In this document: in pieces, positions 19,367 to 42,990 of the stretch | Numbering within the stretch: the first letter of the stretch is position 1 | How the letters are laid out: each line of letters starts with the position of its first letter | Assembly: GCF_013394595.1 (NCBI RefSeq) | Contig: NZ_CP053348.1 | Location: 2,382,001 to 2,446,000 of the forward strand | DNA length: 64,000 bases | DNA from: Winogradskyella forsetii | GTDB taxonomy: Bacteria > Bacteroidota > Bacteroidia > Flavobacteriales > Flavobacteriaceae | Reading direction: 5' to 3' | Position numbers and translations under genes: made by a program | The notes under the pieces: generated by a model | Told to the model about the DNA's origin: nothing | The model's database searches: none | The model's input: only the letters and a program-made list of their open reading frames with translations

Positions 19367-19368
19367 CG

Positions 19369-23292: not shown

Positions 23293-23299
23293 TTTAATG

Positions 23300-23496
23300 T
23301 ACTACAATGGTCTAGTGTATAGCTAGTTACGTGTTTAAGCACTAAAGTTAGCAAATAAAACACAAACCTGCCTGCTGGCAGGCAGGTAGAAAGTTCGCAA
23401 GTCCCGAAAGCTACCTGCTTTCGTAAGTAGGCTTTAACTAGCAATGACACGAGCGCAGCGAACTGGCGAAGCAATTAAACACATTGTTGGCAGTAG
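23300..23496 (-). repeat. attC-like site 9 (long form, REP-containing)
   Basis: Closes cassette 8 (ACTACAAT, AAC changed to AAT) and opens cassette 9 (GTTGGCAGTAG). Contains CCTGCCTGCTGGCAGGCAGG; its CCCGAAAGCTACCTGC block is a decayed form of CCCGATAGCTATCGGG. Confidence 0.85.
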
Positions 23497-24042: not shown

Positions 24043-24046
24043 AATT

Positions 24047-24221
24047 ACTTACAACGTGATGGTGTATGATTTCGTTGCGTTGTTTAACGCACTAAAGTTA
24101 GCAAATAAATCACAGACCTGCCTACCGGCAGGCAGGTAGAAAGTCCGCGAGTCCCGATAGCTATCGGCATTCTTAAGTAGGCTTGTATCAAGCAATTAAT
24201 TTTATACGGTGTTGTAATGCG
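24047..24221 (-). repeat. attC-like site 10 (REP-containing)
   Basis: Closes cassette 9 (TTACTTACAAC) and opens cassette 10 (GTTGTAATGCG). Contains CCTGCCTACCGGCAGGCAGG and CCCGATAGCTATCGG but lacks the TGACACGAGCGCAGCG block. Confidence 0.87.
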
Positions 24222-24768: not shown

Positions 24769-24911
24769 TGCATTACAACGGATTTGTATAAGATTAGTTG
24801 CGTGGTTTAAGCACCTAATTTAGCAAATAATCACTAGATAGGAAATCCGAGAGGATTTTCGTAAGTAGGCGAGAACTAGCCATTGATTTTATACGGTGTT
24901 GTACGCCGTAG
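24769..24911 (-). repeat. attC-like site 11
   Basis: Closes cassette 10 (GCATTACAAC) and opens cassette 11 (GTTGTACGCCGTAG). Central hairpin GGAAATCC-GAGA-GGATTTTC. Confidence 0.9.
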
Positions 24912-25519: not shown

Positions 25520-25654
25520 TCTATGGCGTACAACGTGTTTGTGTATGGTTAGTTGCGTGGTTCAGCAACTAAGTTAGCAAACATTTACGAACCCGTGAAT
25601 ATTCCGCAGGAATATTCGCAAGTAGAGACTAATACAGCAATTAATTATACACGG
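25520..25654 (-). repeat. attC-like site 12, left part (split by an IS110-family element)
   Basis: Closes cassette 11 (GGCGTACAAC) and runs through the central hairpin GAATATTCC-GCA-GGAATATTC to ATTATACACGG, where the IS begins. The remaining GTTGTAGCC end is at about 26906-26914. Confidence 0.85.
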
Positions 25655-25699
25655 CTTAAGTTAGCATTTTATTAAATTAGACAAATAAACAGAAAAGAC

Positions 25700-25865: not shown

Positions 25866-25900
25866 TCGGGTAGATTGTCCTTTCATAAAAACATTTTCTT

Positions 25901-26872: not shown

Positions 26873-26919
26873 AGAGATTTTACTTGTTTTTTAGCACAGT
26901 ACTTTGTTGTAGCCAGTTT

Positions 26920-27467: not shown

Positions 27468-27485
27468 TGGCTACAACGGTCTCGG
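27468..27485 (-). repeat. attC-like site 13, left part (split by IS110-family element 2)
   Basis: GGCTACAAC closes cassette 12 and is followed by GGTCTCGG. After the IS the site resumes at 28840. Joining the two parts gives CGGTCTCGGCTATGAGTAG, matching site 2 (TTTGGGCTATGAGTAG). Confidence 0.9.
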
Positions 27486-27556
27486 CTCGTATGTTTACAT
27501 TTTAAACTTTATTGATTATAAATATAGTATTTTTCTATTTATTAATAAGAGCTAAA

Positions 27557-27708
27557 ATAGAAGGGACAGAGAGGTCTCGGCTAGATACATAATGTGATAT
27601 CGTTTCATAGAAATCCCGCCCTTCTATAGTTCTCTTAGAATCTGAACAGTACCTAGATCCAATTTATAGAGATCGAATCAAATGCGAGCAAAGATGATAA
27701 GGAGAACT
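27557..27708 (+). ncRNA. Bridge RNA of IS110-family element 2 with readable guides
   Basis: Two adjacent stem-loops. The target loop (27557-27627) is closed by ATAGAAGGG / CCCTTCTAT; GGTCTCGGCT at 27573-27582 equals the left target flank at 27478-27487 for 10 nt, and TCATAG at 27605-27610 is the complement of the right flank CTATGA (28840-28845). The donor loop (27628-27708) is closed by AGTTCTC / GAGAACT; ACAGTACCT at 27646-27654 equals the right end plus core (28833-28841), and ATGCGAG at 27682-27688 pairs with CTCGTAT at 27486-27492 with one G-T wobble. The order target-left, target-right, donor-left, donor-right is that of the IS621 bridge RNA. Confidence 0.85.
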
Positions 27709-27729
27709 TTAGCTATAAAACCAATTATG

Positions 27730-28803
27730 ATGGATACAATATTAAAACAATGTTTGGGTATCGATGTTTCAAAATCAAGTTTGAGCCTGAGCTTGGGTTC
27801 TTTGACCAATGATTTAAGCAAGGCATTCGAGAGCCATTTAGATGTGGGCAATGACCTTAAGGGCTTTAAGGCTATAGTTAAATGGTTGGAGAGATCACTT
27901 GATGCCTGTGTTAATTTCATAATAGTTATGGAAGCTACAGGAGTATATCACCAGCACGTGGCACATTACCTATATGAACATGGGTATGATGTCAGTATTA
28001 TGCAATCGGGTCGTGTCAAGCGCTATGCACAAAGCCTGGACTAACGTTCGAAGACAGATGCCTTGGATAGTAGAATGCTGAGCATGCTTGGTCTAGAGCG
28101 GACTCTTCGCTTATGGACTCCACCCAGTTTAGAGTTACGTGAACTAAAGGCATTGAGCAGGGAACGTAGTTCGTTGTTGAAGGACAGAACGGTAGAGAAG
28201 AATCGTCAGGGAGCACTTTTGTCAAGTTTTAATGAGAATGCTAAAGCCTCAAAAAGACATAAGGCCAGGCTTAAACTATTAAATCTCCAGATAGCATCCA
28301 TAGAACAAGAAATGCGCATTTTAATATCGGAAGATCAGACCTTAAAAAGGAAACTCGGTTTTTTGGAGAGTATACCTGGTATTTCATTTATATCTGCAGC
28401 CACTATTGTTGGTGAGACCTTAGGGTTTGAATCGGTAACCAACGGAAAACAGCTGGCAAGTTATGCAGGCTATGATGTTGTGTTAAGAGAGTCTGGCAAT
28501 TTTAAAGGAAAAACAAGGATTAGCAAAAAAGGGAATAGCTACATCAGGGCAGCTCTGCACATGCCATCGATGACCTGTGTGCGTTGTAATCCGACATTGA
28601 AAGCATTCTATAACAGATTAAAACCAAATAAAGCAAAGCCATTGGTAGCACTGGTGGCTGTACAGAGAAAACTGCTCATATTAATGTTTACCTTGTGGCA
28701 GAATGAAGAGAATTATGATGCCGAATTTGAAAATAAAAAGCAGCAAAAGCATGAAGCCCTTGCTGCTCAGGATAACAATTTGATAAATCAATTTGCTTCC
28801 TAA
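27730..28803 (+). pseudogene. IS110-family transposase interrupted by an in-frame stop
   Basis: The reading frame is continuous from an ATG at 27730 (chosen because it lies just after the bridge RNA; an earlier ATG at 27682 overlaps a guide) to 28803, except for one TAA at 28042-28044. Before it: GIDVSKSSLSLSL and VMEATGVYHQH of the RuvC-like domain. After it, in the same frame, RSKTDALDSRML completes the DEDD set, and the Tnp domain follows (LESIPGISFISAATIV, GKTRISKKGNSYIRAA). Without readthrough the protein would be inactive; the nonsense change looks recent because the rest is well preserved. Confidence 0.88.
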
Positions 28804-28839
28804 AATTTTAAAGAAAAAACTTGTTTTATAACACAGTAC

Positions 28840-28958
28840 CTATGAGTAGTTGCGTGGGTTAGCGGTTAACTTAGCAAGTACACACCAAACTGAAAATCCG
28901 CGAGGATTTTCAGAAGTAGGCGAGAACAAGCAATTACTTATAGCCATTGTTGGCAAAC
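28840..28958 (-). repeat. attC-like site 13, right part
   Basis: Continues the split site: CTATGAGTAGTTGC ... central hairpin GAAAATCC-GCGA-GGATTTTC ... GCAATTACTTATAGCC, then opens cassette 13 with GTTGGCAAACG. Confidence 0.9.
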
Positions 28959-30068: not shown

Positions 30069-30272
30069 TTTGCCAACTGTCTTGTGTATGAAACGTAGCG
30101 TATAAATAAACGCTAACTTTTCGGATTTAGCACGAGCCAAATTTTTTATTTTTATGCTTAATTTTCTTTTATAAATATAACCAAATAAAAAATTTGGCGT
30201 ACTTTGTAAATATACAAAAACCTCTCGGAAAGCCTATATTAGCTATGTTTTATACACGTTGTTAGCCACTGG
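30069..30272 (-). repeat. attC-like site 14 (long variant)
   Basis: Closes cassette 13 (GTTTGCCAAC) and opens cassette 14 (GTTAGCCAC). About 200 bp with a different centre: CCAAATTTTTTATTT / AAATAAAAAATTTGG form a long stem. Confidence 0.85.
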
Positions 30273-30295
30273 CTTTATTCCGTAAACTTGCTAGC

Positions 30296-30366
30296 GTTGG
30301 CGTGAAAGCTCTTTTAAATTTGTGAGGAACGAGTAAACTTTAAATGTGCTTGAACTTGCGTTGGCT
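30296..30366. repeat. Left copy of an imperfect direct repeat flanking the defence operon
   Basis: Similar to 36475-36553: both read TTGGnG...AAGCTCTTTT... and end in AAATGTGCTTGA...GCGTTGGCT. The two copies lie just inside the ends of cassette 14 and enclose the five-gene operon. Confidence 0.6.
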
Positions 30367-30368
30367 AT

Positions 30369-31025
30369 TTACGCCATTTTATTCAGTTTCTTGTCAATCA
30401 CAAATACTCCAACCATACAAAATTGTGAATATTTTCCGTTATTCAAAGCTATTAGTTTTGCTTTTTCAGATTCTAAAAATTTTTTATTTAAGGCTACAGT
30501 TCCTTTTCTTTTTCCCTCTATTCTAATTCTATTTTGTACTTCTTCATAAACTACTCGTCTGTTGTCCGCTAAGTTTTTTACGTTTAAGTTTAAAACATCT
30601 TCAAGCTCTATATTAATTGTTTCGTCAGAGGAGTAAATTTCTCCGTTGGGTTTATATTTTATCAAGTCTTCAATATTCCTAGCTTGGTTACAAGGCGAAC
30701 AAGTTAAGCTTTGATTTCCTTTTTTGGTATCACAAGTTTGTAGTCGCTTTGGTGAACCTTCATTTCCTAAACAAGCTAAAAGCATATTTCCGTAATTTAA
30801 TTCCTCTTGCGAATGCTTGTCTTGACACAAAAAATGTTCAATTTTAGAACCTGGTGTTTTTCCAGATTCAGGTATACGTTTCATACAATAACAACAAATA
30901 TGTCCTTGTTCGGCTAATAATGAGTCTCTTGTATCATCTTTAGAGAGATTTTCATAAAAAGCAGGTTTATTTGCTCTATGTTGAGTTAATGATACGGGTT
31001 CATTTCCTTTGGTTATAGCTTTCAT
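30369..31025 (-). CDS. HNH nuclease, PtuB/TIGR02646-like (defence operon)
   Basis: 218 residues of the TIGR02646 type, related to PtuB of Septu defence. The zinc/HNH region is visible: HICCYCMKRI with a CxxC pair, KIEHFLCQD carrying the HNH His, and a second pair in SLTCSPCNQARN. It should be the nuclease effector activated by the ATPase encoded just upstream, with which it overlaps by 4 bp. The pair is the last two genes of an operon that also encodes a methylase and specificity subunit. Confidence 0.82.
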   Translation of the reverse strand: MKAITKGNEPVSLTQHRANKPAFYENLSKDDTRDSLLAEQGHICCYCMKRIPESGKTPGSKIEHFLCQDKHSQEELNYGNMLLACLGNEGSPKRLQTCDTKKGNQSLTCSPCNQARNIEDLIKYKPNGEIYSSDETINIELEDVLNLNVKNLADNRRVVYEEVQNRIRIEGKRKGTVALNKKFLESEKAKLIALNNGKYSQFCMVGVFVIDKKLNKMA

Positions 31026-32536
31026 TCGTCTTCTTTTAAATAACTAATTTGAATTTCAGCTCTTTTAAGTTCTGGGTCATCTTTACCAATGAGTTCTTGT
31101 AAGTCTTTTAAAGAACTTTCAGCATCTTCAATTTCTTCTTCTGCAATGAGAGTGTATAAATCACTTATTTTATCTCTAACAAGCTTATTTCGTTCTTCAA
31201 CTCCCATTAAATCATATAAAATAGAGTTTATCTCTCGTCCATAATATTTTGGTGTATTTTCTATCAAGTCGCCATCTTCAATAATTTTTACAAAATTGAG
31301 TTCTGATTGTGCATTACTAAGTAATTGTGGAGAATGAGTTGCTATCACAAATGAGTTCTCAGAATCGTAGCTTGAATCTATTGTGTTTTCTATATCAGTT
31401 ATAAACTGGCGTTGCCATTTTGGGTGTAAATAAGTATCGGGTTCATCAAAAAGGAAAAGGGAATTTTTCTCTGAAAGTAATTCGGTTAATCCTTTAATAA
31501 TTATTGCTTGTTGCTCACCTTCACTTAGTACTCCAAATGTTTTATATTCTTCTCCTTCTTTTTTCAAAGAAAAAGAAATGTCTTTAAGCATACCGTCTGC
31601 AAATAAGATATTTAGAATTTCAAATAGTTTTTTTTCTTCTATTAAGTGATTACGAATTTCGAATAGTCTTTGTTGAGAAATAATTGTAATGTTAATGGCT
31701 TCATCTTGCCAAGACTCAATTACAATATTCCCAATTTCTTTTGATTTATCAGGATTGTCTAAATCATCAGCAGACGCAGAGTTTTCATTTAAGTAATCTA
31801 AAAAGTTTCTTACTTCTCCTTCTGCTCCCCAAAAGTTTTGAATAGTATCTTTTGCCCATTCAGGTTTTTGTAATCTTATTTGAATACTTTGAACTCCGTT
31901 AATTTTAGCTTTAGTTCTTAGAAAATCAGGAATATCTCCATATTCAAAAGAGAGTAAACTGGTTAAGATAATGTCAAAATGTTCAGGTTGAAAATAGAAA
32001 AAATCTCTATCAGCTAAAGTGTTATTTTTTCTATATGCACTTGAAATTATTTCATTATGTGGCTTAACCAATTCTTGCATAATTTCGGATAAGCCAGAGT
32101 AATAAATAACAATATTGTCTGGCAAGTAAGAATAGGCAGTTTTACCTGCTACGAAAGCCATCTTGTCTTTTTCAAGTATATCAATCTTGCTAAAAGTTTT
32201 TCCATCCTTGTCAAACGTCTCAATCTGAATGGTATCACCTTTTTTATTTGCTGATAATTTTGCTGATAAATAAGTAGTGTGGAGCTCAGAAGTAGTACTT
32301 GTTTCCTCTATCATTTTTTCGTGACGAACAGAATACTCTAGTTGAAAACCAAATTTGGCTTTTTCATTGAGATAAACGCTACTAAATATTTGTGCAATAG
32401 CCTCCAAAATTGTAGATTTTCCAGAACCATTTGTTCCAATTAAAACTGAAATGTATTTTTTGAAATCATAAGGAAATTCGATTGTGAAATCATTTAATAT
32501 TTTATAGTCGTTTATGTATAATTTTTTCAGTTGCAT
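31022..32536 (-). CDS. PtuA-like AAA (ABC/SMC-type) ATPase (defence operon)
   Basis: 504 residues. Walker A is GTNGSGKST (34-42), an ABC-type signature is LSEGEQQAII, Walker B is FLFDEPDTYLHP and the switch His is in ATHSPQLL, as in AAA_15/AAA_21 ATPases of the Septu PtuA, Gabija and OLD group. No TOPRIM domain is seen at the C-terminus, which favours PtuA over OLD or GajA. It lies 2 bp after the specificity gene and overlaps the HNH gene. Probably the sensor or motor partner of the HNH nuclease. Confidence 0.85.
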   Translation of the reverse strand: MQLKKLYINDYKILNDFTIEFPYDFKKYISVLIGTNGSGKSTILEAIAQIFSSVYLNEKAKFGFQLEYSVRHEKMIEETSTTSELHTTYLSAKLSANKKGDTIQIETFDKDGKTFSKIDILEKDKMAFVAGKTAYSYLPDNIVIYYSGLSEIMQELVKPHNEIISSAYRKNNTLADRDFFYFQPEHFDIILTSLLSFEYGDIPDFLRTKAKINGVQSIQIRLQKPEWAKDTIQNFWGAEGEVRNFLDYLNENSASADDLDNPDKSKEIGNIVIESWQDEAINITIISQQRLFEIRNHLIEEKKLFEILNILFADGMLKDISFSLKKEGEEYKTFGVLSEGEQQAIIIKGLTELLSEKNSLFLFDEPDTYLHPKWQRQFITDIENTIDSSYDSENSFVIATHSPQLLSNAQSELNFVKIIEDGDLIENTPKYYGREINSILYDLMGVEERNKLVRDKISDLYTLIAEEEIEDAESSLKDLQELIGKDDPELKRAEIQISYLKEDE

Positions 32537-32538
32537 AA

Positions 32539-33885
32539 TTATACTGGTTTAAATATTTCATTTTCAAATTCTGTAATAGATAGATTTCTATTTTTTTCGG
32601 ATTGTGTTTTTAAATCTTTAATTTTATTTTTTAAATTTAAAATGTGGTTTGTTATTTCTTTTTGTTTGTCAATAGGCGGTATTGGTACTTTATAATTAGA
32701 GATAATTCCGGCATTTAAATTTGGTTGAGCACTACCGTAAGCTAATTTTTTAAAACTATCTTTTTGAATTTGTAAATATTCCCATAGAAAATCAGTTAAA
32801 ACTACATCATTATCAATATTAAAAAGGACTGCACAGGCTTGATTAGTACTCGCCGAAACACCAAGTTTAGCAGTTTTTCCAATTGTTGCTCCATACATAG
32901 CAATTATTAGACTATCTTTTTCATATAATTTTGCACTACTATTATTTAGACCTTCAATAGTTATTTTTTCTTCTGAATCATAAATTATTTCATTTTCTAA
33001 TTCACCAGTTTTAACCCAAGGAATATCACCATTGGAATAATACTCCTTTCTACTTCTAAGAGGGGTTCCACCACTACTTATTTGGGAAATTTCATTGATT
33101 TTGTATTCGTCAAATAGTGTGCTTTTGTTTGATATATCTTCAATGAAGTCTATTCCCCATTTTTCTAATTGACTTAATGACACTAAATGCAGCCCTTTTA
33201 TATTTATTTTATCCACAGCCTTTTTTATTCCTAAAGCTTCAAAAAGATAATTTTCAATTTCAATTTCTAATTGTATTGCTTTATTTATTTGTTTTTCAGA
33301 TAAAGCAATTCTTTTGTTATATTGATTAATGATTTTTTCTTGTTCTTTTAAACGAGGAAGTGGAATTAAATACTCCAAAACGTGCGAAGGTCTTATGGCG
33401 GCATAGTTCGTACTTCCTGTAGCTTTTACTTGTTTCGAAAAACCCTCACACTTTGTGAGAATAGACAAATATTCCGGGTTTAATTTGTCTTCATCAATGT
33501 CGAATAGAAAATAATGGCTACTAACTATGGCATTAATTAACTCTTTCGGTACAATTCCATAACCACCAACTTTTGCATCTATTTCAGCAACAAGAAAATC
33601 ATCTTCTTTACACAGGTATTGTTTTTTCGTTTTTATTTCTTTCCCTAATACTTCATCGCGGAGTACAATTCCTTGTCCTCTGACTTTAACTCTACACCTT
33701 TTGTAAAGTTTTGTGTCGTCAATTTTGATTGAATCTTTTCTCTGTGTTAATACATCAGATAACTCTACTAAAGGGTAGTTAGAATATATTTCTGATTTAT
33801 TATTAAAGGAGTAGTAATCCCAAAACTTCAAGATTTTGAAGTTTGAAAACTTCAAATATTTATGATTTTTCACATTACTTACCAT
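32539..33885 (-). CDS. Type I-style DNA specificity subunit (HsdS-like, defence operon)
   Basis: 448 residues with two target-recognition domains. TRD1 runs from about YPLVELSDVLTQRKD to PLPRLKEQEKIINQYNKRI; TRD2 from KINEISQISSGGTPLRSRKE to VPIPPIDKQKEITNHIL, each followed by a helical spacer. Two TRDs imply a bipartite recognition sequence. It overlaps the end of the methylase gene by 7 bp, so the two products should form one complex. No separate R-subunit motor gene is present. Confidence 0.9.
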   Translation of the reverse strand: MVSNVKNHKYLKFSNFKILKFWDYYSFNNKSEIYSNYPLVELSDVLTQRKDSIKIDDTKLYKRCRVKVRGQGIVLRDEVLGKEIKTKKQYLCKEDDFLVAEIDAKVGGYGIVPKELINAIVSSHYFLFDIDEDKLNPEYLSILTKCEGFSKQVKATGSTNYAAIRPSHVLEYLIPLPRLKEQEKIINQYNKRIALSEKQINKAIQLEIEIENYLFEALGIKKAVDKINIKGLHLVSLSQLEKWGIDFIEDISNKSTLFDEYKINEISQISSGGTPLRSRKEYYSNGDIPWVKTGELENEIIYDSEEKITIEGLNNSSAKLYEKDSLIIAMYGATIGKTAKLGVSASTNQACAVLFNIDNDVVLTDFLWEYLQIQKDSFKKLAYGSAQPNLNAGIISNYKVPIPPIDKQKEITNHILNLKNKIKDLKTQSEKNRNLSITEFENEIFKPV

Positions 33886-36203
33886 AAAATATTACCTTTT
33901 CTGTATTCTTGAAACTCTTTAGCTAAAGGTTCTAGTTCGTTGTCAATTTCTGCACCAGTTGAGCTTATCCCAGCCTTTTCGACTTCTGCAATAGGAATTT
34001 GATAGTCAAAGTCAGTTTTAATTTTGGCTTTTATCTCAGACTCTATTTTTAATTTAGTTTGTTTCAAAAATGATTTAAATGACTTTTTTTCTTCATTTAC
34101 CTTAGTATTTGCTTTTTGCACAGATTCTTCCAGTTTAGAATATTCAGAGGCATTTATTTTTATATTTCCTTTTTTTTGCCCTTTAAGATTATTAATATCT
34201 TTTAAGTCTTTAACCAATTTTTTATAATTTTCATCTGCTAAAATCGATTTTTCTTTTTCTTTTTTAATTAAAGGGTTATATTTTTCATTGATTTTATTAA
34301 TAGCCTTTTCTTCAATCTCTTTATACTCTTTGAGTTCTTTTACTGTGAATTTTTTAAAGAATAATAGACTTGGCTTTACATTAGCTCCACTTGCAATAAA
34401 AACATCTTGGGGAATAGAAGTTATTAAAATAATTTTGGCTCTTCCTTCTACAAATTCTCTTGTTTTTTGAAGGTTTGTATTATTTAAAACACCCTCAGGT
34501 AAAACTATTCCCATTCGTCCACCAGGTTTTAATAAATTCAAGCATCTTTCAATAAAAAGCACTTCTGTTAACGTACTCCATTTACCAACCTCAAATAAAT
34601 CAAGAATTGGTTTCCCTTTGCTTTTATCTTTTTTATTAATATAATTTGCCCATTCTTTTAAAGGTTCAACAACTTTTTCTTCATAATTGTGATATCTAAC
34701 TTTGTATTTTTCTAATTTATCTACTGAGGGTAAGTCTAATTCAGTTACTTTAAGTGATTTTTCTACCCTAGCACCAAAAGGCGGGTTTGTAAGGATTACA
34801 TCAAAACGTTCATCAAAAATCCCATTTACATTTAACAACCCATCATTATGGTGAACACCTCCGTGTCCATCTCCGTGCATAATCATATTCATTTTAGCTG
34901 TTCTTGCCATTCTTGGATTTGCATCAGTTCCATAGATGCTATAATGAGAAAGCTTATGATATCTGCTTTCTTCATTGCTAATAACAAGTTCTTGGTTTAT
35001 CTTGTCAATTCTAACTTGTACTAATTTGATAATTTTTTCTTGTTCTCTCACTGAGAGTTTATCAAAATTTTCATTATAATACTCTTGTTTTAATGATTTA
35101 ATTTGATTGTTTATTTCAGAATCTATTTTATCTCTTATATGTTCAAAAGCACTAATTAAGAATCCGCCACTACCACAGCAAGGGTCGCAAATAGTCTCGC
35201 CTTCTTGAGGGTCGAGAATATCAATCATAAAATCAACAATCGTTCGTGGTGTGAAAAATTGTCCTAATTCTCCTCTAAAAGTTTTTCCCAAGAATTGTTC
35301 AAAAGCTATTCCTTTTACATCATCAGAAGTATCGGAAAGGTTGAACATTTCAAGTTCTTCAACTATCATTTCAAAGCTATTTTTCTTTATTTTGATTATA
35401 TCTTTAAGCTCAAAAAGACCATCAGTTTCAAATTCCTTTTTTGTCTTATTGAAAAGAAATTGCATATAATCTTGGTCAGAGTTAGGATATTCCTTCTTTA
35501 TGCTAGGACGAATAATTTTTTCATAATTTATTTCGTCAGCTTTAAACCTGTCTTTTGAAAAAATCATTTCCTCTGTAGAACTTCGTTCATACATTATTTT
35601 CATAAACAAGATTTTACTGATTTCATCAAATGCGGCCTCAGGAGATAATTTATCGTTGTTTCTTATAATGTTATGACTTCTTGTTAATAATTTAGTAAAC
35701 TCCTCTCTTGTGAATCGTTTGTTTTCATTTACATATTTTACAATTTTACTATTATCAGAAAGAATATCTGCTTTGGGAATTTCTGTTAATTTCTCAATCT
35801 TTTTTGTAGAAATTTCATTTTTAATATGAAAAATCTTAGTTTCCTTTAGATTTACTGCAATGAAAAAATTAGCATTAATTGTCGAAGCAAAATTATAGCC
35901 AATTGAATAGTCAGATTCCTTAATCTTAATGTGCTCAGCTTTGCATTCAACTGTGATAATTATAGAGGGAATGATATTTTTATCCTTGTCTAATTTATTT
36001 CGCCAAATTGCAATATCTGCTTCATATCTTTTTTTTATTTTTATATCTTGACCAAGTTGACTTAATGAGTAACCATATATATTAATAAGACGACAGATGA
36101 ACTTTTGTTTTAACTCTTCTTCTGCTGAATGAGAAACCCATTTGTCTAACAAAGGAGCATATATTTTATTCTTTTCTTTGTCTATTTGAAGTTCTAGTTT
36201 CAT
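33879..36203 (-). CDS. HSDR_N nuclease domain fused to N6-adenine methylase (BcgI-like RM subunit)
   Basis: 774 residues. The N-terminal 130 residues look like the HsdR N-terminal PD-(D/E)XK domain: EADIAIW (61-67) and IIITVECKAEH with Glu86 and Lys88. The methylase core follows: GQFFTPRTIV (about 315-323), DPCCGSGGFL (340-349, SAM binding) and TNPPFG (catalytic NPPF 473-476). A charged coiled-coil tail closes the protein. Nuclease plus methylase with a separate S subunit is the layout of type IIB/BcgI enzymes. The domain could instead be a regulatory or DNA-binding leftover, since the operon also brings its own HNH nuclease. Confidence 0.88.
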   Translation of the reverse strand: MKLELQIDKEKNKIYAPLLDKWVSHSAEEELKQKFICRLINIYGYSLSQLGQDIKIKKRYEADIAIWRNKLDKDKNIIPSIIITVECKAEHIKIKESDYSIGYNFASTINANFFIAVNLKETKIFHIKNEISTKKIEKLTEIPKADILSDNSKIVKYVNENKRFTREEFTKLLTRSHNIIRNNDKLSPEAAFDEISKILFMKIMYERSSTEEMIFSKDRFKADEINYEKIIRPSIKKEYPNSDQDYMQFLFNKTKKEFETDGLFELKDIIKIKKNSFEMIVEELEMFNLSDTSDDVKGIAFEQFLGKTFRGELGQFFTPRTIVDFMIDILDPQEGETICDPCCGSGGFLISAFEHIRDKIDSEINNQIKSLKQEYYNENFDKLSVREQEKIIKLVQVRIDKINQELVISNEESRYHKLSHYSIYGTDANPRMARTAKMNMIMHGDGHGGVHHNDGLLNVNGIFDERFDVILTNPPFGARVEKSLKVTELDLPSVDKLEKYKVRYHNYEEKVVEPLKEWANYINKKDKSKGKPILDLFEVGKWSTLTEVLFIERCLNLLKPGGRMGIVLPEGVLNNTNLQKTREFVEGRAKIILITSIPQDVFIASGANVKPSLLFFKKFTVKELKEYKEIEEKAINKINEKYNPLIKKEKEKSILADENYKKLVKDLKDINNLKGQKKGNIKINASEYSKLEESVQKANTKVNEEKKSFKSFLKQTKLKIESEIKAKIKTDFDYQIPIAEVEKAGISSTGAEIDNELEPLAKEFQEYRKGNILW

Positions 36204-36427
36204 TTTTCGTCCAGAGTTGAATTAATTAATTCTTTCACATCAATACCAAACAAATTGGCAATTTCTAAAAGTGTATCTAAAGAAGGTTGTACCTCATTAG
36301 TACACCATCTAGATACAGTTGTTCCGTTTTTATTCAGCTTTTCGGCTAACCATTTGTTGGTTTTTCCGTGTTCAGCTAAAACGACTTTCAATCTATTAAT
36401 TGCTTTTTTATTCATAATTATTAGCAT
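36200..36427 (-). CDS. Xre-family HTH regulator (defence operon, first gene)
   Basis: 75 residues, a single HTH_3 domain: LKVVLAEHGKTNKWLAEKLN, then GTTVSRWCTNEVQPSLDTLLEIANLFG. A second ATG lies at 36415. It overlaps the methylase gene by 4 bp and opens the operon, like the C proteins that time methylase and nuclease expression in restriction-modification systems. Autoregulation is inferred from family and position. Confidence 0.85.
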   Translation of the reverse strand: MLIIMNKKAINRLKVVLAEHGKTNKWLAEKLNKNGTTVSRWCTNEVQPSLDTLLEIANLFGIDVKELINSTLDEK

Positions 36428-36474
36428 CTAATGCAAATATATCAACTTTTAAGGGATAATCAATATTCGGAAGT

Positions 36475-36553
36475 AGTTGGTGGGAAAAGGCAAGCTCTTT
36501 TTATTTTTTAAGGCACGAAAAAAATGAAATGTGCTTGACTGCGCGTTGGCTTT
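36475..36553. repeat. Right copy of the imperfect direct repeat flanking the defence operon
   Basis: Partner of 30296-30366; contains AAGCTCTTTTT and GAAATGTGCTTGACTGCGCG followed by TTGGCTTTT. Confidence 0.6.
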
Positions 36554-36559
36554 TCAGCT

Positions 36560-36699
36560 TGTGGCTAACGTGATTGTGTATGATTTCGTTGCGTGTTTAA
36601 GCACTAAATTTAGCAAATAAATCACAAATAGAAAGTCCGCGAGGACTTTCGTAAATTGGCTAAAGCCAGCAATTAATTTTATACGGTGTTGTGCGTTCG
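36560..36699 (-). repeat. attC-like site 15
   Basis: Closes cassette 14 (GTGGCTAAC) and opens cassette 15 (GTTGTGCGTTC). Central hairpin GAAAGTCC-GCGA-GGACTTTC; short form of about 140 bp. Confidence 0.92.
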
Positions 36700-36736
36700 T
36701 TTTTTGTCAGTCCGATGAATTGCTTTATTCTTTTAA

Positions 36737-37153
36737 TTACGTAGTAACCTTCCACATAACGCCAAATTTGTCAATGCAATTACCATAATAAGATTCCCAA
36801 AATGTAACGTGCATAGGCAATGTTTTTTGTCCACCTTTGGAAAGTTCGTTATATAGCTTGTCAGCTTCATCTTTACCATCTGTATGAATTATAAGACCGA
36901 AGTTGCTATATCCTTTTGACTTTTCATATCCTTCAGTATAGTCAGCTCCATTCAAACTTGTTTCTTCACTAATATCCAAAGTGACGTGCATTATTTTATT
37001 TTCGTCAGTTTCTTGGAAAATATGTTTGTCTTGTTTTGGAACATCTTTATAGCGTCCAATGTATGAGACCTTCTTTCCAAAAACTCCTTCATAAAAATTG
37101 AAGGCTTCTTCACAATTACCATTAAAATAAAGGTATGGATTCATTCTTGCCAT
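36737..37153 (-). CDS. VOC-superfamily (PhnB/glyoxalase-like) protein (cassette 15)
   Basis: 138 residues of the vicinal-oxygen-chelate fold: MNPYLYFNGNCEEAFNFYEG at the start, a middle HVTLDIS strand, and WESYYGNCIDKFGVMWKV at the end, as in PhnB / 3-demethylubiquinone-methyltransferase-like proteins. Such small proteins often modify or bind antibiotics or toxic compounds; no substrate can be named. Sole gene of its cassette (ends GTTGTGCGTTC and GACGCACAAC). Confidence 0.85.
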   Translation of the reverse strand: MARMNPYLYFNGNCEEAFNFYEGVFGKKVSYIGRYKDVPKQDKHIFQETDENKIMHVTLDISEETSLNGADYTEGYEKSKGYSNFGLIIHTDGKDEADKLYNELSKGGQKTLPMHVTFWESYYGNCIDKFGVMWKVTT

Positions 37154-37199
37154 AGAGCTTATTTTAGATTATTATTTAATTTTTCTATCATTGCGTAAA

Positions 37200-37338
37200 T
37201 GACGCACAACGTTGTTGTATAAGATTAGTTGCGTGTTTTAAGCACTAAAATTAGCAAATAAATCACAGATAGAAAGTCCGCGAGGACTTTCGTAAGTAAG
37301 CTAAAACTAGCAATTAATTTTATACGGTGTTAGGCTAC
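37200..37338 (-). repeat. attC-like site 16
   Basis: Closes cassette 15 (ACGCACAAC) and opens cassette 16 (GTTAGGC, a perfect GTTRRRY box). Central hairpin GAAAGTCC-GCGA-GGACTTTC. Confidence 0.93.
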
Positions 37339-38025
37339 GTTATTTTCCGTAACAATTTTATATATTTCTTTCACGTATTTTTCTCTTTGATACCAATCGT
37401 TATAAACAAACTCAAATTCATTTACTTTAAAAGTTCCAAAATCGTAATTAATATTTTCATCCAAAAATTCTAACAATTTTTCTTTTTGACTTAATTCCGC
37501 TTTAAATCGAACAATTGTTGAGTGAGCTGTTTGTATCGAATATCTTTTGTCTAAACTTTGCTCCAAATTAGATGCTTTAAATTCTTTTCTCAACCTGTCT
37601 CTAATATTATTTAGTTCGTTATTATCCATAAATCCTTGAATCAGAATTCCAGATGGCGAGGCTGTAATTCCTCTAAAAGTGATATTTATATCTTTCTTTT
37701 CTAAAATACATTTTTCAATCAATTCAATATACTTTGCTAAATCAATCTTTTCAATGTCAAATCCGTCATAACAAGAAATGATTGACATTACAGTAATATG
37801 AATATCAGAGTTTGGATAATAATATTGATTCGGTTCAATTTTCTTAATTTGTGTGATAAATTTTTGAATTTTTTCTTTTATCTCAATTGAAGGTCTTATC
37901 AAAAGTGTTATTCCAAACCTATTGTCTTTGTTAGAATCTATTAAATCGTCAATTTCGTAATTGTCGGAAGAGATTTTACTTATTGATTCATTATAAAGTT
38001 TTTTATAGTGACTTTCTAAATTCAT
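37330..38025 (-). CDS. 2H phosphoesterase / 2'-5' RNA ligase-like protein (cassette 16)
   Basis: 231 residues with the two HxTx-type motifs of the 2H superfamily: DIHITVMSI near residue 96 and AHSTIVRF near residue 169. Members hydrolyse cyclic or 2'-5' phosphodiester bonds; some cleave cyclic-oligonucleotide signals, and some act as anti-defence proteins. Which of these applies is unknown. Sole gene of its cassette; ends GTTAGGC and GCCTAAC are exact complements and match the canonical integron consensus. Confidence 0.82.
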   Translation of the reverse strand: MNLESHYKKLYNESISKISSDNYEIDDLIDSNKDNRFGITLLIRPSIEIKEKIQKFITQIKKIEPNQYYYPNSDIHITVMSIISCYDGFDIEKIDLAKYIELIEKCILEKKDINITFRGITASPSGILIQGFMDNNELNNIRDRLRKEFKASNLEQSLDKRYSIQTAHSTIVRFKAELSQKEKLLEFLDENINYDFGTFKVNEFEFVYNDWYQREKYVKEIYKIVTENNVA

Positions 38026-38067
38026 TAATCACAATTTTTCAAATTATTACGGATGTTTTTTTAATGT

Positions 38068-38206
38068 TGCCTAACGTTTTGTGTATGGTTAGTTGCGTTT
38101 TTAAGCAACTAATTTAGTAAACAAAAACGAACGCGAGAAAATTCCGAAGGAATTTTCCAAATAATCACTTGCCCAAGCAATTAATTATACACGGTGTTGG
38201 CAGTAG
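38068..38206 (-). repeat. attC-like site 17
   Basis: Closes cassette 16 (TTGCCTAAC, a perfect RYYYAAC box) and opens cassette 17 (GTTGGCAGTAG). Arms GTGTATGGTTAGTTGC / GCAATTAATTATACAC; central hairpin GGAAAATTCC region with compensatory changes versus site 15. Confidence 0.93.
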
Positions 38207-38921
38207 GTTTTTTTTCAATCCGCTCAACTATTTCATAACCTAAATTTCCTTTTTCCATAAACAAAAGTAGTGTGTCATACTTTTGTAATTTATTCCAGAG
38301 TTCAGATTCGATTTTGAACTTCTCGTTGTAAATTCCAACGTTTGTGAAAATCCAATATTGAGAATCGTTTTTGTCTTTTCCGTCAATTTCAGATTCTTTT
38401 TTCAAAACAATGGATTCCAATGGATTTATTGCTTTTTCGGCTTTATATCTGTTGATAAAAGTTACAGAAGAAATCAATAATAAGGGAAATACGATTAGAG
38501 ATGAAATCAGTCCAAAAAAGCTGATTTTTCTCTTTTCTTTTGGTTTAAAGCTATAGCTTATTAAGACAATAAAGATTGCAAGAAATAATCCATAAATTCC
38601 AAAATCTCTGAAAATTTGATAGTCATTTATTGTATTGCCTAAATGTTTGAATTCGTTTCCTACAAAGCCGACAAATAATCCCAATATTATAGGTGCTAAT
38701 ATTGTTCCTTTAATCAGTTTTTTTAAGTTAGTCTTATTTCCGTTGAGAACGTCTATCAGTCTAATTAAGTTAAGAATAATGAAAAAAGAACCAATTATTG
38801 CGAGTACAGAAAGAAACATTTTTTTATTAATAAAAACGCCTATCAAAATAAGACCGAATACTATTCCGGCAACTATTTGATAATACTCGTTTTTAAAAAT
38901 TTTCTTGAATTCAGAGTTCAT
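38181..38921 (-). CDS. Polytopic membrane protein (cassette 17)
   Basis: 246 residues with about five membrane segments (QIVAGIVFGLILIGVFI, MFLSVLAIIGSFFIILNLI, APIILGLFVGFVG, YGLFLAIFIVLISYSF, LISSLIVFPLLLISSVTFI) and a soluble C-terminal domain of about 70 residues. No family recognised. The frame runs slightly into the attC-like repeat at its 3' end. Cassette ends GTTGGCAGTAG and TTACTGCCAAC fit at all but one position. Confidence 0.65.
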   Translation of the reverse strand: MNSEFKKIFKNEYYQIVAGIVFGLILIGVFINKKMFLSVLAIIGSFFIILNLIRLIDVLNGNKTNLKKLIKGTILAPIILGLFVGFVGNEFKHLGNTINDYQIFRDFGIYGLFLAIFIVLISYSFKPKEKRKISFFGLISSLIVFPLLLISSVTFINRYKAEKAINPLESIVLKKESEIDGKDKNDSQYWIFTNVGIYNEKFKIESELWNKLQKYDTLLLFMEKGNLGYEIVERIEKKPTANTVYN

Positions 38922-38930
38922 TTGCTCAAC

Positions 38931-39070
38931 TTACTGCCAACGTTGTTGTATATGGTTTGTTGCGTGTTTTAAGCACTAAATTTAGCAAATAAATCACAGA
39001 TAGAAAGTCCGCGAGGACTTTCGTAAGTAGGCTAGAACTTGCAATAAATTATATACGGTGTTAGCAGCTG
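38931..39070 (-). repeat. attC-like site 18
   Basis: Closes cassette 17 (TACTGCCAAC) and opens cassette 18 (GTTAGCAGC). Central hairpin GAAAGTCC-GCGA-GGACTTTC. Confidence 0.93.
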
Positions 39071-39074
39071 CTTT

Positions 39075-39755
39075 TTAATCAAATTCAATTCGTTCTTTAT
39101 TTTGTTCAGCCCAATCAATAATCAATTCCTTAATTCTTGACTTATCTTCTTTTTTTAATTCCGATTTGGTAGGCAAGCACCAATTGGTTTCAGCTTCAAA
39201 CCATAATCTCATTCCTCCAACTTCTAATTCCCATTCGAATTCTATGAGTTTGCCATTTTCTACAAAATAGATATATCCATTTCTTCCTTTATTCGAGAAA
39301 TGGATTCCGTTTTTTGTCAACAGTTTTTCAATTCCATCTTTTTTTCTTCTTTCCGTTTTCCATTCTCCATTTAGTTTCTCTGAAATATGTACTTGAAAAT
39401 TATTCTCACTTACTTTATAAGTTGTCCAACCAAAAGGTAATTTATAATCCAAGCCTTTTAAGGTTTTCTTCGATTGCTTTTTACAATAAGAAGCGACTTT
39501 ATCCATTTCCATTATGTTGGCAGCTCTAGCTAGTTCAGTCCAAAATTCTTCTGAAAAATAATGTTCGGTTTCGTCAGCTAATTCGACAAGACTTTCCAAT
39601 GCAAGTCCGAATTCTTTGTTTTCGTAAAATTCAATACTGTTCTGAAATTGTCTGTGAGTTTTATAGAATTCAGGAATGTAGTCAATCATTCGCTTTATTA
39701 TCTTTTTAGGCGATGATTCTACTCGTTTTTTCTTTATGAAACTAAATATTCCCAA
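39075..39755 (-). CDS. Hypothetical soluble protein (cassette 18)
   Basis: 226 residues. An N-terminal helical part (FQNSIEFYENKEFGLALESL) is followed by a strand-rich part with RRKKDGIEKLLTKNGIHFSN and GKLIEFEWELEVGGMRLWFE. No signal peptide or membrane segment. It looks like the single-gene immunity-like proteins common in cassettes but no family is identified. Cassette ends GTTAGCAGC and GCTGCTAAC are exact complements. Confidence 0.62.
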   Translation of the reverse strand: MGIFSFIKKKRVESSPKKIIKRMIDYIPEFYKTHRQFQNSIEFYENKEFGLALESLVELADETEHYFSEEFWTELARAANIMEMDKVASYCKKQSKKTLKGLDYKLPFGWTTYKVSENNFQVHISEKLNGEWKTERRKKDGIEKLLTKNGIHFSNKGRNGYIYFVENGKLIEFEWELEVGGMRLWFEAETNWCLPTKSELKKEDKSRIKELIIDWAEQNKERIEFD

Positions 39756-39769
39756 TGTTCGTTTTAAGT

Positions 39770-39909
39770 TGCTGCTAACGGTCTCGTATAACCGTCAGTT
39801 ACGGGTTAATATGCGTTAATTTTCGGTTTAGCACTGACCTTTGCAATTCCGAGTGGATTCGGACGTAGTCGAATCCGCCGTAATTGCGGTTATACATTGT
39901 TGTGCATAG
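39770..39909 (-). repeat. attC-like site 19 (variant centre)
   Basis: Closes cassette 18 (GCTGCTAAC) and opens cassette 19 (GTTGTGCATAG). Arms GTATAACCGTCAGTTACGG / CCGTAATTGCGGTTATAC; GGATTCGGACGTAGTCGAATCC in the centre. Shares ACGGTCTCG with the IS110 target in site 13. Confidence 0.87.
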
Positions 39910-40533
39910 TTATTTATTCCGTTCAATATATTTTTTTTCGGTTTCCGTTTCAGTTAATTGTCCGTTTTTATCAAATGTTTTGATTATCGTTTTCCTCTTT
40001 TTATTCTCATAAATTTGATATTCTTCCAAATCGCTATTTTCATCATAGTAATCAACACGATTATAGTTAAGAGTCAGATTTTCATAAAAGTATTGAGCTC
40101 TTAAAGTTCCACTTTTTCGGTATTCTTTGATTTCTATCGGTTTCCCATTTTTGTACGTTCCTTCAGTCCGCTTATTTCCGTTTTCATAAAAATCAGTTTC
40201 TTTTCCATCACAAACTTTCTCGCATTTCAAATAAGTCCAGCGTTTTGAATGCAATTCGTTTCCGCCTGCAAAAAGAATTTTTGGAATTCTAATGGTATCA
40301 TTTTTGGTTTTTATTGATGTTGTGTATTGAACAATCCAATCATCAATTTCTTTATAGACTGTTATGTAGTCATAATTCAGTTCCGACATTGAGAAAACTT
40401 CAAATTCAGGTTCAATTATTTTATCAGAACAGACATCATAAAATACTAAATTCAGGTTTTCATTTCCGCTGTTTTGGCTAAAACACGAGAAGCTTATAAT
40501 TAGCAGAAAGATTGATTTTAGTACTGTTTTCAT
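39910..40533 (-). CDS. Exported MORN-like (YwqK-type) repeat protein (cassette 19)
   Basis: 207 residues from the ATG at 40533 (the frame opens at a TTG inside the repeat, rejected). Signal peptide ends SFSCFSQ. The C-terminal half has short repeats: DFYENGNKRTEGTYKNGKPI, EYRKSGTLRAQYFYEN and TFDKNGQLTETE, the MORN_2/YwqK pattern found in toxin-antitoxin-like and surface proteins. Cassette ends GTTGTGCATAG and TTATGCACAAC (10 nt complementary). Confidence 0.75.
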   Translation of the reverse strand: MKTVLKSIFLLIISFSCFSQNSGNENLNLVFYDVCSDKIIEPEFEVFSMSELNYDYITVYKEIDDWIVQYTTSIKTKNDTIRIPKILFAGGNELHSKRWTYLKCEKVCDGKETDFYENGNKRTEGTYKNGKPIEIKEYRKSGTLRAQYFYENLTLNYNRVDYYDENSDLEEYQIYENKKRKTIIKTFDKNGQLTETETEKKYIERNK

Positions 40534-40536
40534 AAT

Positions 40537-40677
40537 TATGCACAACGTTGATGTGTATGGTTAGTTGCGTGGTTAAGCAACTAATTTAGCAAATAAATCA
40601 CAGATAGAATATTCCGCAGGAATGTTCGTAAGTCGGCAGTGACTTAGCAATTAAATATACACGGTGTTGTAAGCAGT
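40537..40677 (-). repeat. attC-like site 20
   Basis: Closes cassette 19 (TATGCACAAC) and opens cassette 20 (GTTGTAAGCAG). Central hairpin GAATATTCC-GCA-GGAATGTTC. Confidence 0.93.
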
Positions 40678-40680
40678 TAT

Positions 40681-42162
40681 TTATTCCGTTTTAAATTCAG
40701 GACTTCCAATTTGTCCGAAACAATCAGCAATTGGTTTCTCGTTTGGGTTATTGAAAAATTCATTTGCCGATATCATTGCACATTGGTTACTCCAATTAGT
40801 TGTTGGTGTATGTTTCCAACCTTTAAAAATTAAATGATAACTATTAGTGAAATTACGAGTCATTGACTTTGCCCATTTTACTGGTGTCTCGTTATCATAT
40901 TCTCCACTTATAAATAAAACAGGAATATCGCTTTTTACTTTGTTATTTTCAATTTCCGCTACTTTATTTACACTCCAGATCTCACATATTCTATTGTCGA
41001 AAACAGCAGGTGAAAGACCTTTAACTTCTGGATACTTACTGGTCTCGCTATTAATTATCTCTATAGAGTTGAATGGGTTTTCTTCTGCACACCAAACTGA
41101 CAAGCGCATTCCTAATCCCGCTCCATTTCCCGGTTCCTGAAATAAATTTTTCAGTTTATCCTTTACAGAAGTCAAATCATTGTTCAATAGTTTATTAATC
41201 TCAAATGGAACGTTTGGAACACTTCCAGTTGAAGCTGAAGTAAAAACAGTAATCAAATCTTCTCCTTTTAAATAGAAGGTTTCTATTTTATCACTTTTTG
41301 GATTTTTAATTTCAACTTTTAGGGGATTAGCAGTCTTTTCTTTCAAATATTCAACAAACCGATTTTTTAAATTGGGATAAGCTGAATTACATTTTTTATC
41401 GTTTTCACAATCGGAAAGTAATGTTGTAATTGATTCTAATAGATTCTGCACGCTTTCTTCATCGTAGTTGACTTCCAATGGAAGAGGTGAGTCCATTACA
41501 ACACTTCTTATTTTATCAGGATAATCTCGCATTAGGACTTGAGCGATTTTGGTGCTGTACGATATGGTCAGTAGATTGTATTCATCTATTTCTAATAAGT
41601 TTACCAAGTCATTGATGTCCGATGCTATTTCGTTGGTGTTGTAACCATTTAAATCAATTCCTTGCTTTTCAAGTCGTTCTTTGCAGGATTTTGCCGATTG
41701 TTCAAATAGGGCATCATAATTAGCTAAATCAAAATTCGGTTGATTGGATTCATAGATTGCTTGTGACCATTCAGGACAATCCAAATGTGGTTTTGCGTAA
41801 TAGTTTCCGCGTTGCTCTACAAGAATGAAATCCCTATCATCAAGATATTTGTAATAGTTCATATATTGTGCGGAAGGCATTGTTGTAGAACCTGGACCTC
41901 CAACTGTATAGATGATAGGGTCTTTTTTTGGATTTGAGTTTCTGCTTTTAAAGATATAAACAGGAAATTTTATAGTTTTTCCGTTAGGATTACTTCTATT
42001 TTCAAGTACTTCTAAATAACCAAAAGTAAATTCTTGTCCATCAGGAATTTTATGTGTTGTTTCTTTAGATTTTGTGAAATTTGGGACGAAACGATTTGTA
42101 GTTTGTCCAACACAAGAATTAAAAATAAGGATAAATGATAGTGAGATTAATAATTTTTGCAT
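40681..42162 (-). CDS. S33-family alpha/beta-hydrolase peptidase lipoprotein (cassette 20)
   Basis: 493 residues. Signal with lipobox ILIFNSC. The alpha/beta-hydrolase core shows the oxyanion motif VGGPGST, DFILVEQRGN, the nucleophile Ser in ISYSTKIAQVLM, DMSP-like VVMDSPLP, the Asp in ISGEYDNETPV and the His in GWKHTP, so the triad is complete. This is the tripeptidyl/prolyl aminopeptidase type (S33). It is an unusually large cargo for a single-gene cassette; ends GTTGTAAGCAG and TTGCTTACAAC. Confidence 0.85.
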   Translation of the reverse strand: MQKLLISLSFILIFNSCVGQTTNRFVPNFTKSKETTHKIPDGQEFTFGYLEVLENRSNPNGKTIKFPVYIFKSRNSNPKKDPIIYTVGGPGSTTMPSAQYMNYYKYLDDRDFILVEQRGNYYAKPHLDCPEWSQAIYESNQPNFDLANYDALFEQSAKSCKERLEKQGIDLNGYNTNEIASDINDLVNLLEIDEYNLLTISYSTKIAQVLMRDYPDKIRSVVMDSPLPLEVNYDEESVQNLLESITTLLSDCENDKKCNSAYPNLKNRFVEYLKEKTANPLKVEIKNPKSDKIETFYLKGEDLITVFTSASTGSVPNVPFEINKLLNNDLTSVKDKLKNLFQEPGNGAGLGMRLSVWCAEENPFNSIEIINSETSKYPEVKGLSPAVFDNRICEIWSVNKVAEIENNKVKSDIPVLFISGEYDNETPVKWAKSMTRNFTNSYHLIFKGWKHTPTTNWSNQCAMISANEFFNNPNEKPIADCFGQIGSPEFKTE

Positions 42163-42176
42163 TGGTCTTCTTTAAT

Positions 42177-42315
42177 TGCTTACAACGTTTTGTGTATGAT
42201 TAGTTGCGTGGTTCAGCAACTAATTTAGTAAACAAAAACTTGCCAGAGAAAATTCCGAAGGAATTTTCCAGATAAACACTTGCCAAAGCAATTAATTATA
42301 CACGGTGTTAGCAAC
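42177..42315 (-). repeat. attC-like site 21
   Basis: Closes cassette 20 (TGCTTACAAC) and opens cassette 21 (GTTAGCAAC). Arms GTGTATGATTAGTTGC / GCAATTAATTATACAC; central GAAAATTCC-GAA-GGAATTTTC. Confidence 0.93.
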
Positions 42316-42331
42316 TGGCTTTTTATCCGGT

Positions 42332-42832
42332 TTATATTTCTTTCCAAATGATTTTATAATTCGGAAATTGGCTTTCAAATCGTTGTTTTAATTCCGCTAA
42401 TTCTTCTGAATCGAGATTCTGATGCTCAATTTCAATTCCGATTAAATGGTCACTTAAACACCAACCTTTGCAAATTAATTTTTGCTCACTTTTGGCTGAA
42501 TTCAAGGTGATTTCTTGTCCGTGTTCAGTTCCGTAACTCATTAAGTTGACTTTGCTCAATATTTTTTGAATTTTGAGTTTAATCCACTTTTCATTCGGTA
42601 AATTAATATTTTCAGGATTTATTTCCTCCGTTTTCAGAAACTTAAAATCCGAGCTTTTAACTGCATTAATAACTTCTGTAGGATATTCTTTCGACCAAGT
42701 ATAATTTCTGTCGTATGTCATAAATTTATAAAACAGAAAAAATCCTAATATTAATAGGATTGGATAAAATATCAATTTATTTCTTTTCGCTTTGTTCAAA
42801 AGTTCGATTTTCAGCTTGTTGCTAACACCCAT
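42332..42832 (-). CDS. Membrane-anchored hypothetical protein (cassette 21)
   Basis: 166 residues: basic N-terminus, one membrane segment (LIFYPILLILGFFLFYKFM), then a soluble domain with CKGWCLSDHLIGIEIEHQ. No family recognised. First cassette from the presumed attI side if the array is read on the minus strand. Its right end TTGTTGCTAAC overlaps the start of the gene, and the left end is GTTAGCAAC. Confidence 0.62.
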   Translation of the reverse strand: MGVSNKLKIELLNKAKRNKLIFYPILLILGFFLFYKFMTYDRNYTWSKEYPTEVINAVKSSDFKFLKTEEINPENINLPNEKWIKLKIQKILSKVNLMSYGTEHGQEITLNSAKSEQKLICKGWCLSDHLIGIEIEHQNLDSEELAELKQRFESQFPNYKIIWKEI

Positions 42833-42990
42833 ATAACGTTACTAAAGCCATAAAAGTAACGTTATTTCGCTTAAGTCTACACGTTTGTAGTGTCTATTGA
42901 TAAGCGAAGTTCGACTTTTTAAAACTGAAAGTCAATACGTAACTTTACGTATTTTTTATATAAACGTATGTGGCTGTTTTTACAACAGAT
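42815..42990. repeat. Terminal structured region at the right end of the array
   Basis: After GTTGCTAAC several nested inverted repeats follow (GTTACTAAAG...CTTTACGTA-type arms, TTTCGCTTA / TAAGCGAA, CTACACGTTTGTAG). It occupies the place of a terminal attC or an attI site but does not match the other 21 repeats, so its nature is uncertain. Confidence 0.4.

Follow-up and report, generated by a model that had tools for sequence, protein, structure and literature searches.

The window analyzed here, a stretch of 64,000 nucleotides from the complete genome of Winogradskyella forsetii (4,512,651 bases, single contig), carries a tandem array of 21 attC-like sites, S1 to S21, placed between window positions 15301 and 42313. 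These sites are very probably the joints of an integron-like cassette system of Flavobacteriaceae, in which the bottom strand of the site would fold and be acted on in trans by a tyrosine recombinase encoded at 2.13 Mb of the genome (G000:C1:2129324-2130451). Selection on one folded strand is well supported by sequence comparison, mainly by the outer arm of the sites and by wobble pairs that fall on one side. A covariance model search found at least 146 attC-like sites in the whole genome, in about a dozen clusters; these are the sites found among 150 scored of 2973 candidates, and more may exist, so that distances to the nearest site given below are upper bounds.

Cassette tags and cassette edges

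Read on the coding strand, the mobile unit would consist of GTT, a gene, AAC and then an attC-like site up to the next GTT. The tag after GTT was compared with the reverse complement of the tag before AAC, over ten positions per boundary. At 20 neighbouring boundaries of the window the end tag mirrors the start tag at 152 of 200 positions, whereas permuted tags give a mean of 77.7 and a maximum of 116, and none of 100,000 permutations reached 152. The average is 7.6 of 10 for neighbours versus 3.6 for non-adjacent tag pairs. The S12-S13 boundary, split by an insertion sequence (IS), is outside the 20 counted, and its tags match on direct reading.

We extended the comparison to 196 cassettes, drawn solely from the 18 loci at which an array follows the recombinase gene. 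The complementarity of the ends extends to position 14, with a match at position 12 in 171 cassettes, at position 13 in 181, at position 14 in 149 and at position 15 in 32. At position 11, 168 cassettes have a bottom-strand wobble and none a top-strand one; three have a match and the other 25 a different mismatch. Tag positions 4-9 served the chain search, and those above 9 alone are independent of it. The longest open reading frame (ORF) is on the array strand in 189 of the 196 cassettes.

Seven pairs of near-identical cassettes, located at different places, display the edges of the unit. On the inner side of the left GTT all 14 positions are identical, and identity continues through the right GTT; it falls to 29-71% outside the GTT edges, one right-hand position excepted (100%). 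Further pairs were also seen, and no copied pair loses its identity short of GTT. The left edges are sharp in the five pairs outside locus L095, while the two L095 pairs represent one two-cassette duplication with shared flanks; some right edges extend a few bases past GTT because the next cassettes begin alike. Since identity ends at GTT on both sides, the mobile unit would run from GTT to GTT, as in integrons, and the copied cassettes point indirectly to a crossover within GTT. The first cassette of the window itself recurs at 100% identity, over 640-644 bp, in two cassettes of the 2.13 Mb array, about 286 kb away.

Outer arm and strand preference

An original prediction on this DNA had proposed that the outer arms of the sites pair, that the central stem varies in a compensatory manner, and that selection on a folded strand is implied, as for attC recombination. 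The outer arms do pair in a structural alignment of 27 sites, where 94.7% of the cells in a 16-pair arm are paired and ten pairs are changed on both sides. Covariation was measured by counting structure pairs on the alignment, with shuffles and slides as controls. The outer arm scores 0.336 versus 0.124 in shuffles (0 of 500 as high) and at most 0.084 when slid; sites of one array are related and not independent, so these shuffle counts are no probabilities, and the arm structure, derived from the same alignment, is somewhat favoured over the slides. It is this arm that carries the covariation signal, the central stem by itself having few compensated changes.

Two pairs of the outer arm are near-invariant G.T pairs (23 and 26 of the 27 sites). 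Where one strand has a G.T pair, its complement has an A.C mismatch. In the aligned arms of 188 sites (eight of the 196, shorter than 100 nt, were dropped), the bottom strand has 591 G.T and 3 A.C, versus 94 and 353 for the top strand aligned likewise. The predicted stability of the bottom strand exceeds that of the top strand in 189 of the 196 sites. Among 35 sites of the own genome, 20 from the window and 15 from the second array at 2.13 Mb, the bottom strand is more stable in 30 with DNA parameters, and 32 favour one strand with RNA parameters. Its predicted fold has unpaired, unequal spacers and a variable tip. Outer-arm covariation and one-strand wobbles, together with tag pairing and GTT edges, support the proposed selection on a folded single strand.

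According to the mechanism we propose, the bottom strand of a site would fold as single-stranded DNA into, in this order, GTT/AAC, a spacer that is unpaired and unequal, about 16-19 arm pairs and a variable tip carrying the central hairpin. Cleavage by the recombinase would take place within GTT, and cassettes would be excised or integrated, attI being one of the places where they enter. The choice of strand may be set by the fixed G.T wobbles and the unequal spacer, not by canonical extrahelical bases.

The linked recombinase

The second array starts about 50 nt past the stop of the 2.13 Mb recombinase gene. This enzyme, with an attI-like site just past its stop, would most likely serve the window array in trans. 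Other recombinase-like loci are at least 26 kb from the sites listed, one fragment excepted. We compared 17 related enzymes, 15 from loci with at least six linked cassettes and two from loci with four links (L044) and one link (L051). The catalytic residues R221, K246, H310, R313, H336 and Y345 are invariant in an 18-sequence alignment. The catalytic K is separated from HxxR by 64 residues in the 17 enzymes versus 106 in five IntI proteins, the missing part being the I2 insert, and the alignment of the own enzyme to IntI4 (2a3v) breaks at chain positions 205-246.

The own enzyme is under the cut-offs of the XerA, IntI, XerD and XerC models. Its best score is to XerA (NF040815, 198.4 bits, cut-off 220), followed by IntI (187.7 bits, cut-off 265), XerD (167 bits, cut-off 330) and XerC (162 bits, cut-off 335). 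Foldseek ranks XerA 5hxy first and IntI4 2a3v second. In a quick tree, for which five of ten IntI loci passed the filters and one own Xer row was left out, the 17 enzymes form one group (SH-aLRT, the approximate likelihood ratio test, 91) apart from IntI (100), and IntI joins some XerA-like rows (93). Phage records gave partial recombinase matches only, none over 80% of the query. A total of 66 plasmid records matched, three of them covering 80% of the query. Fifty of the 66 records are from Acinetobacter, and a partial relative annotated as tyrosine recombinase or TnpF occurs on plasmids of this genus, with 50% identity along 61% of the query among the rows listed.

Spread among other genomes

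A relative of the recombinase at E≤1e-60 is present in 68 of 149 genomes of the family. We analyzed 60 of the 77 non-own places listed; ten had too little downstream DNA, and the remaining 50 together with the own array gave 51 testable loci. At 18 of these, the own array included, at least six linked cassettes start within 200 nt of the recombinase stop, as expected by position for attI. The longest chain anywhere in reversed sequences was at most 5. Two loci (L091 and L102) have 7-8 links elsewhere and fewer than six at attI. Arrays beside this recombinase are not universal.

Further arrays were found at L201 within the family and at L187 in another family of the class, and L202, inside the family, has six links elsewhere than at attI. 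Among the loci of named species, 76 of 80 were examined and 54 were testable. Five or more links at attI were found only in Algibacter onchidii (L118, 10 links, probably on the same contig as L068), Winogradskyella ursingii (L109, 5 links, weak) and L113 (5 links); L166 has five elsewhere, and fives are weak because the reversed control among the named loci reached 4. A class- or phylum-wide claim was rejected: of the 17 testable loci among 20, 14 lie outside the family, and L187 alone of these 14 reached six at attI.

Several family matches to the recombinase are located no more than about 300 nt from the end of a contig, which would be expected with a repeat array following. In one genome (G125) two recombinase copies (L046 and L047) each have attI-like sequence, followed by near-identical 1.9-kb repeats.

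Layout of the array and the central hairpin

The sites and ends of the window array are listed below with window coordinates and strand.

S1, 15301..15440, +, attC-like site at the far end of the array
S2, 16093..16222, +, attC-like site
S3, 17005..17200, +, attC-like site, long form
S4, 17975..18109, +, weak attC-like site; hairpin 18020-18038 non-homologous to the central hairpin
S5, 18527..18718, +, attC-like site, long form
S6, 19232..19363, +, attC-like site; hairpin 19275-19293 of the same type as in S4
S7, 20155..20343, +, attC-like site, long form
S8, 22387..22515, +, divergent attC-like site
S9, 23302..23492, +, attC-like site, long form
S10, 24049..24217, +, attC-like site of 169 nt
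S11, 24773..24904, +, attC-like site
S12, 25528..25661, +, attC-like site with an IS110-type element inserted close to its right end; GTT tag at 26906, read directly
S13, 27469..28955, +, attC-like site split by a second IS110-type element
S14, 30071..30267, +, attC-like site of 197 nt
Gene part of the 6.3-kb cassette, S14 to S15, 30261..36569, -, with matching end tags (genes given under cargo)
S15, 36563..36694, + (the bottom strand is window +), attC-like site; central hairpin 36631-36650
S16, 37204..37335, +, attC-like site; central hairpin 37272-37291
S17, 38069..38202, +, attC-like site; central hairpin 38137-38157
S18, 38935..39066, +, attC-like site; central hairpin 39003-39022
S19, 39773..39905, +, attC-like site of a different sub-type
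S20, 40540..40672, +, attC-like site; central hairpin 40607-40627 with one T.G wobble
S21, 42180..42313, +, attC-like site; central hairpin 42248-42268
First cassette (gene and S21), 42184..42826, -, its 166-aa gene at 42332-42832 begins within the attI-like end
attI-like array end, 42808..42898, -, matching the 2.13 Mb recombinase gene at its 3' end and the sequence beyond in 80 of 92 columns

Every stem quoted in the original prediction is present in the sequence. The central stem is GAAAGTCC/GGACTTTC in S15, S16 and S18, GAAAATTCC/GGAATTTTC in S17 and S21, and GAATATTCC/GGAATATTC in S12, with the same stem plus the wobble in S20; S4 and S6 have GATTTTCC/GGAAAATC. The region to which these stems had been assigned, 36560-42315, contains S15-S21 only, and sites 4, 6 and 12 are located upstream. 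An interior uninterrupted Watson-Crick stem of at least 7 bp was found in 24 of the 35 own-genome sites versus 3.7% of dinucleotide shuffles, the 24 including inserted palindromes (S3, S5, S7, S9 and S10) and differently placed hairpins (S4, S6 and L012_6862). In 17 other loci a perfect interior stem of that length is present in 131 of 176 sites versus 4.3% of shuffles.

The hairpin of S4 and S6 starts at site position 44-46, versus 66-70 for the central hairpin, and is therefore a separate hairpin and no compensated variant of the central stem. Inspection by eye of the homologous central stem gives two positions that are clearly compensated (pair 5, from A-T to G-C, and pair 4, from A-T to T-A); the length of the stem varies between 8 and 9 bp, and one pair is broken in L012_13215 and in L012_14063. 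Covariation of this stem was set aside as main evidence because the changes are too few. The original observation is confirmed, and its folded-strand interpretation is supported by other evidence, stronger than the central stem.

Sites S3, S5, S7, S9 and S10 (window 17005-24217) carry extra palindromes CCTGCC..GGCAGG, some also TCCCGATAGCTATCGGGA, which lengthen the tip of the site. The two IS110-type transposase genes, recognized by eye from the ORFs, are at window 25660-26900 and 27480-28830, inside S12 and S13; one group of IS110-type elements targets attC sites. A transposase pair of IS3 type, also recognized by eye, is at 21171-22333 in the cassette between S7 and S8.

Comparison with known systems

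The array shares with integrons and clusters of attC sites lacking integron-integrases (CALIN), for which we take the Vibrio superintegron as type, the tandem cassettes in one orientation, the attI-like insertion point, quasi-palindromic sites with AAC/GTT ends, edges at GTT, predicted folding of the bottom strand and the large size. It differs in that the recombinase has no I2 and possesses an extra N-terminal domain, that extrahelical bases are mostly off the R''-L'' arm, that the end complementarity reaches up to position 14 with a fixed G.T, and that the recombinase gene is oriented towards the array. The canonical boxes are RYYYAAC for R'' and GTTRRRY for R'. The AAC/GTT cores are nearly universal in the window sites, and one box per side (GTTAGGC), of 20 per side, fits GTTRRRY. 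In canonical attC, as described in PMC2727003, the R''-L'' arm bears two or three extrahelical bases, the spacer is unpaired and the tip varies. The sites here share the spacer and the tip, and we found a bulge on this arm in 26 of 188 sites (two bulges in 13); in 97 sites the one bulge is confined to the opposite arm, and 62 have none. On the sequence features compared, the system would work like an integron, and it departs from the IntI family in I2, in the extrahelical bases and in the strict GTTRRRY. A role in attC-like recombination, as originally proposed, appears the best reading of the sites, yet these are not canonical attC and the linked recombinase is not IntI.

The catalytic core scores best with the XerA model, and XerA 5hxy, closely followed by IntI4 2a3v, heads the structural ranking; the 17 enzymes form a group of their own in the quick tree. 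Xer recombinases are not known to have cassette arrays. Xer recombinases can act on a folded strand, for example in the single-strand hairpin integration of CTX phage by XerC, and PMC7790495, which describes such use of a folded strand, views I2 as the novelty by which integrases turned to folded single strands. The integrase of spirochaete integrons is in reverse orientation (PMC9668308, in part); this orientation is shared by the system described here, whereas theirs is an IntI. For Bacteroidetes proper, the complete integron named in the available part of the IntegronFinder 2.0 paper (PMC9024848) is that of Salinibacter ruber. No cassette system without I2 was found in open-licence PMC papers, which cover the literature in part. 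The integrase search of IntegronFinder relies on an IntI-specific domain, as far as described in the part of PMC9668308 at hand, and would thus be expected to miss I2-less enzymes. A natural, large cassette system with a recombinase without I2 and few extrahelical bases may offer a direct test of the I2 idea.

Alternative explanations

Several points weigh against the reading of the sites as joints of a cassette system served by the 2.13 Mb recombinase. No recombinase gene was recognized beside the window array, and the excepted recombinase-like fragment (55 aa, E 0.1), at 4.4967 Mb, is about 1 kb from the site at 4.4956 Mb. IntI4 2a3v, just under XerA in the Foldseek ranking, has the higher TM-score. 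The S3-S4 tags mismatch, with agreement at one of ten positions, and for five of the 35 own-genome sites the fold of the top strand is slightly the more stable one with DNA parameters. Fewer than six links at attI were counted in 33 of the 51 loci, 12 of these having no link at all, and no cassette chain follows either recombinase copy of G125. The occurrence in the own genus is patchy, as the gene at E≤1e-120 is in two of 60 genomes, this genome included. Movement of cassettes by this recombinase, through a single-stranded intermediate, is predicted from sequence.

The anatomy of the array, very near that of integrons, would also suit a true integron array (CALIN) moved by an IntI from other bacteria or by one since lost, with the XerA-like gene as a bystander. 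IntI proteins over the NCBIfam cut-off are encoded in 105 of 395 genomes of the phylum; however, 104 of these are outside this class, none is in this family, and the complete own genome has no IntI above that cut-off. In 18 of 51 loci an array begins just downstream of the XerA-like gene, and a bulge on the R''-L'' arm is in only 26 of 188 sites, so that we consider this origin unlikely. The pairing of the arms could alternatively come from mutation bias, by template switching or by gene conversion between arms or sites, rather than from selection on a folded strand, given that the central stems are palindromic almost throughout, with few independent changes among them, and that sites within an array are related. 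Such correction of arms would leave perfect Watson-Crick arms, but G.T wobbles persist here at fixed positions and nearly always on one strand (591 versus 3 in the arms, 168 versus 0 at tag position 11, over 18 loci), which makes mutation bias very unlikely.

Strong hairpins, and a preference for one strand with RNA parameters too (32 of 35 sites), might also be read as structures working as RNA, in a terminator, an antisense RNA or mRNA stability, with homologous recombination spreading the repeats. It is the complement of the cassette mRNA that the wobbles favour, and a role in sense RNA is thus unlikely, an argument that leaves antisense RNA untouched. However, the tags pair across whole genes and the copies keep their identity to GTT, which exchange inside 130-nt repeats would not yield, and no Rfam family matched the window at gathering score; we regard an RNA explanation as highly improbable.

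The N-terminal domain of the recombinase

The extra N-terminal domain is confidently modelled by AlphaFold2 (78 residues, predicted local distance difference test, pLDDT, 88.2), and the full-length model of the Winogradskyella ursingii enzyme has a pLDDT of 85.8. Pfam names no domain for the own N-terminal part, and HARP is absent from the list up to E 5. HARP appears below threshold in two of 15 enzymes (best E 0.0011), with a best score of 15.6 bits versus a gathering score of 25 among nine proteins. In a profile search of the PDB, HARP 4o66 is second in the list (E 0.23). Foldseek gave no match to the domain at E≤0.001; structural re-ranking of its hits placed UvsW (Z 7.0) and XPB (Z 6.4-6.7) on top; aIF1 reaches Z 6.1, and scores of this size often arise by chance. 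The likeness to HARP and to the damage-recognition domains of XPB and UvsW is wholly below thresholds. XPB and HARP domains bind distorted or branched DNA. Taken together, these individually weak signals would suggest, by way of hypothesis, that the domain is a reader of distorted DNA.

A tentative extension, which we hold as possible rather than probable, is that the system represents a second, independent solution to recombination on a folded strand. An I2-less, XerA-like family with a HARP- or damage-recognition-like N-terminal domain would then read G.T-wobbled hairpin sites, in arrays of superintegron size, in Flavobacteriaceae and beyond.

Cargo

The arrays point to a large, patchy pool of mobile genes. 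The 6.3-kb cassette (30261-36569) encodes a PtuB-like protein, a PtuA-like ATPase, a type I specificity subunit and a type I methyltransferase, with an unassigned stretch beside S15, and from this gene content the combination of PtuA/PtuB with type I genes is a probable anti-phage cassette.

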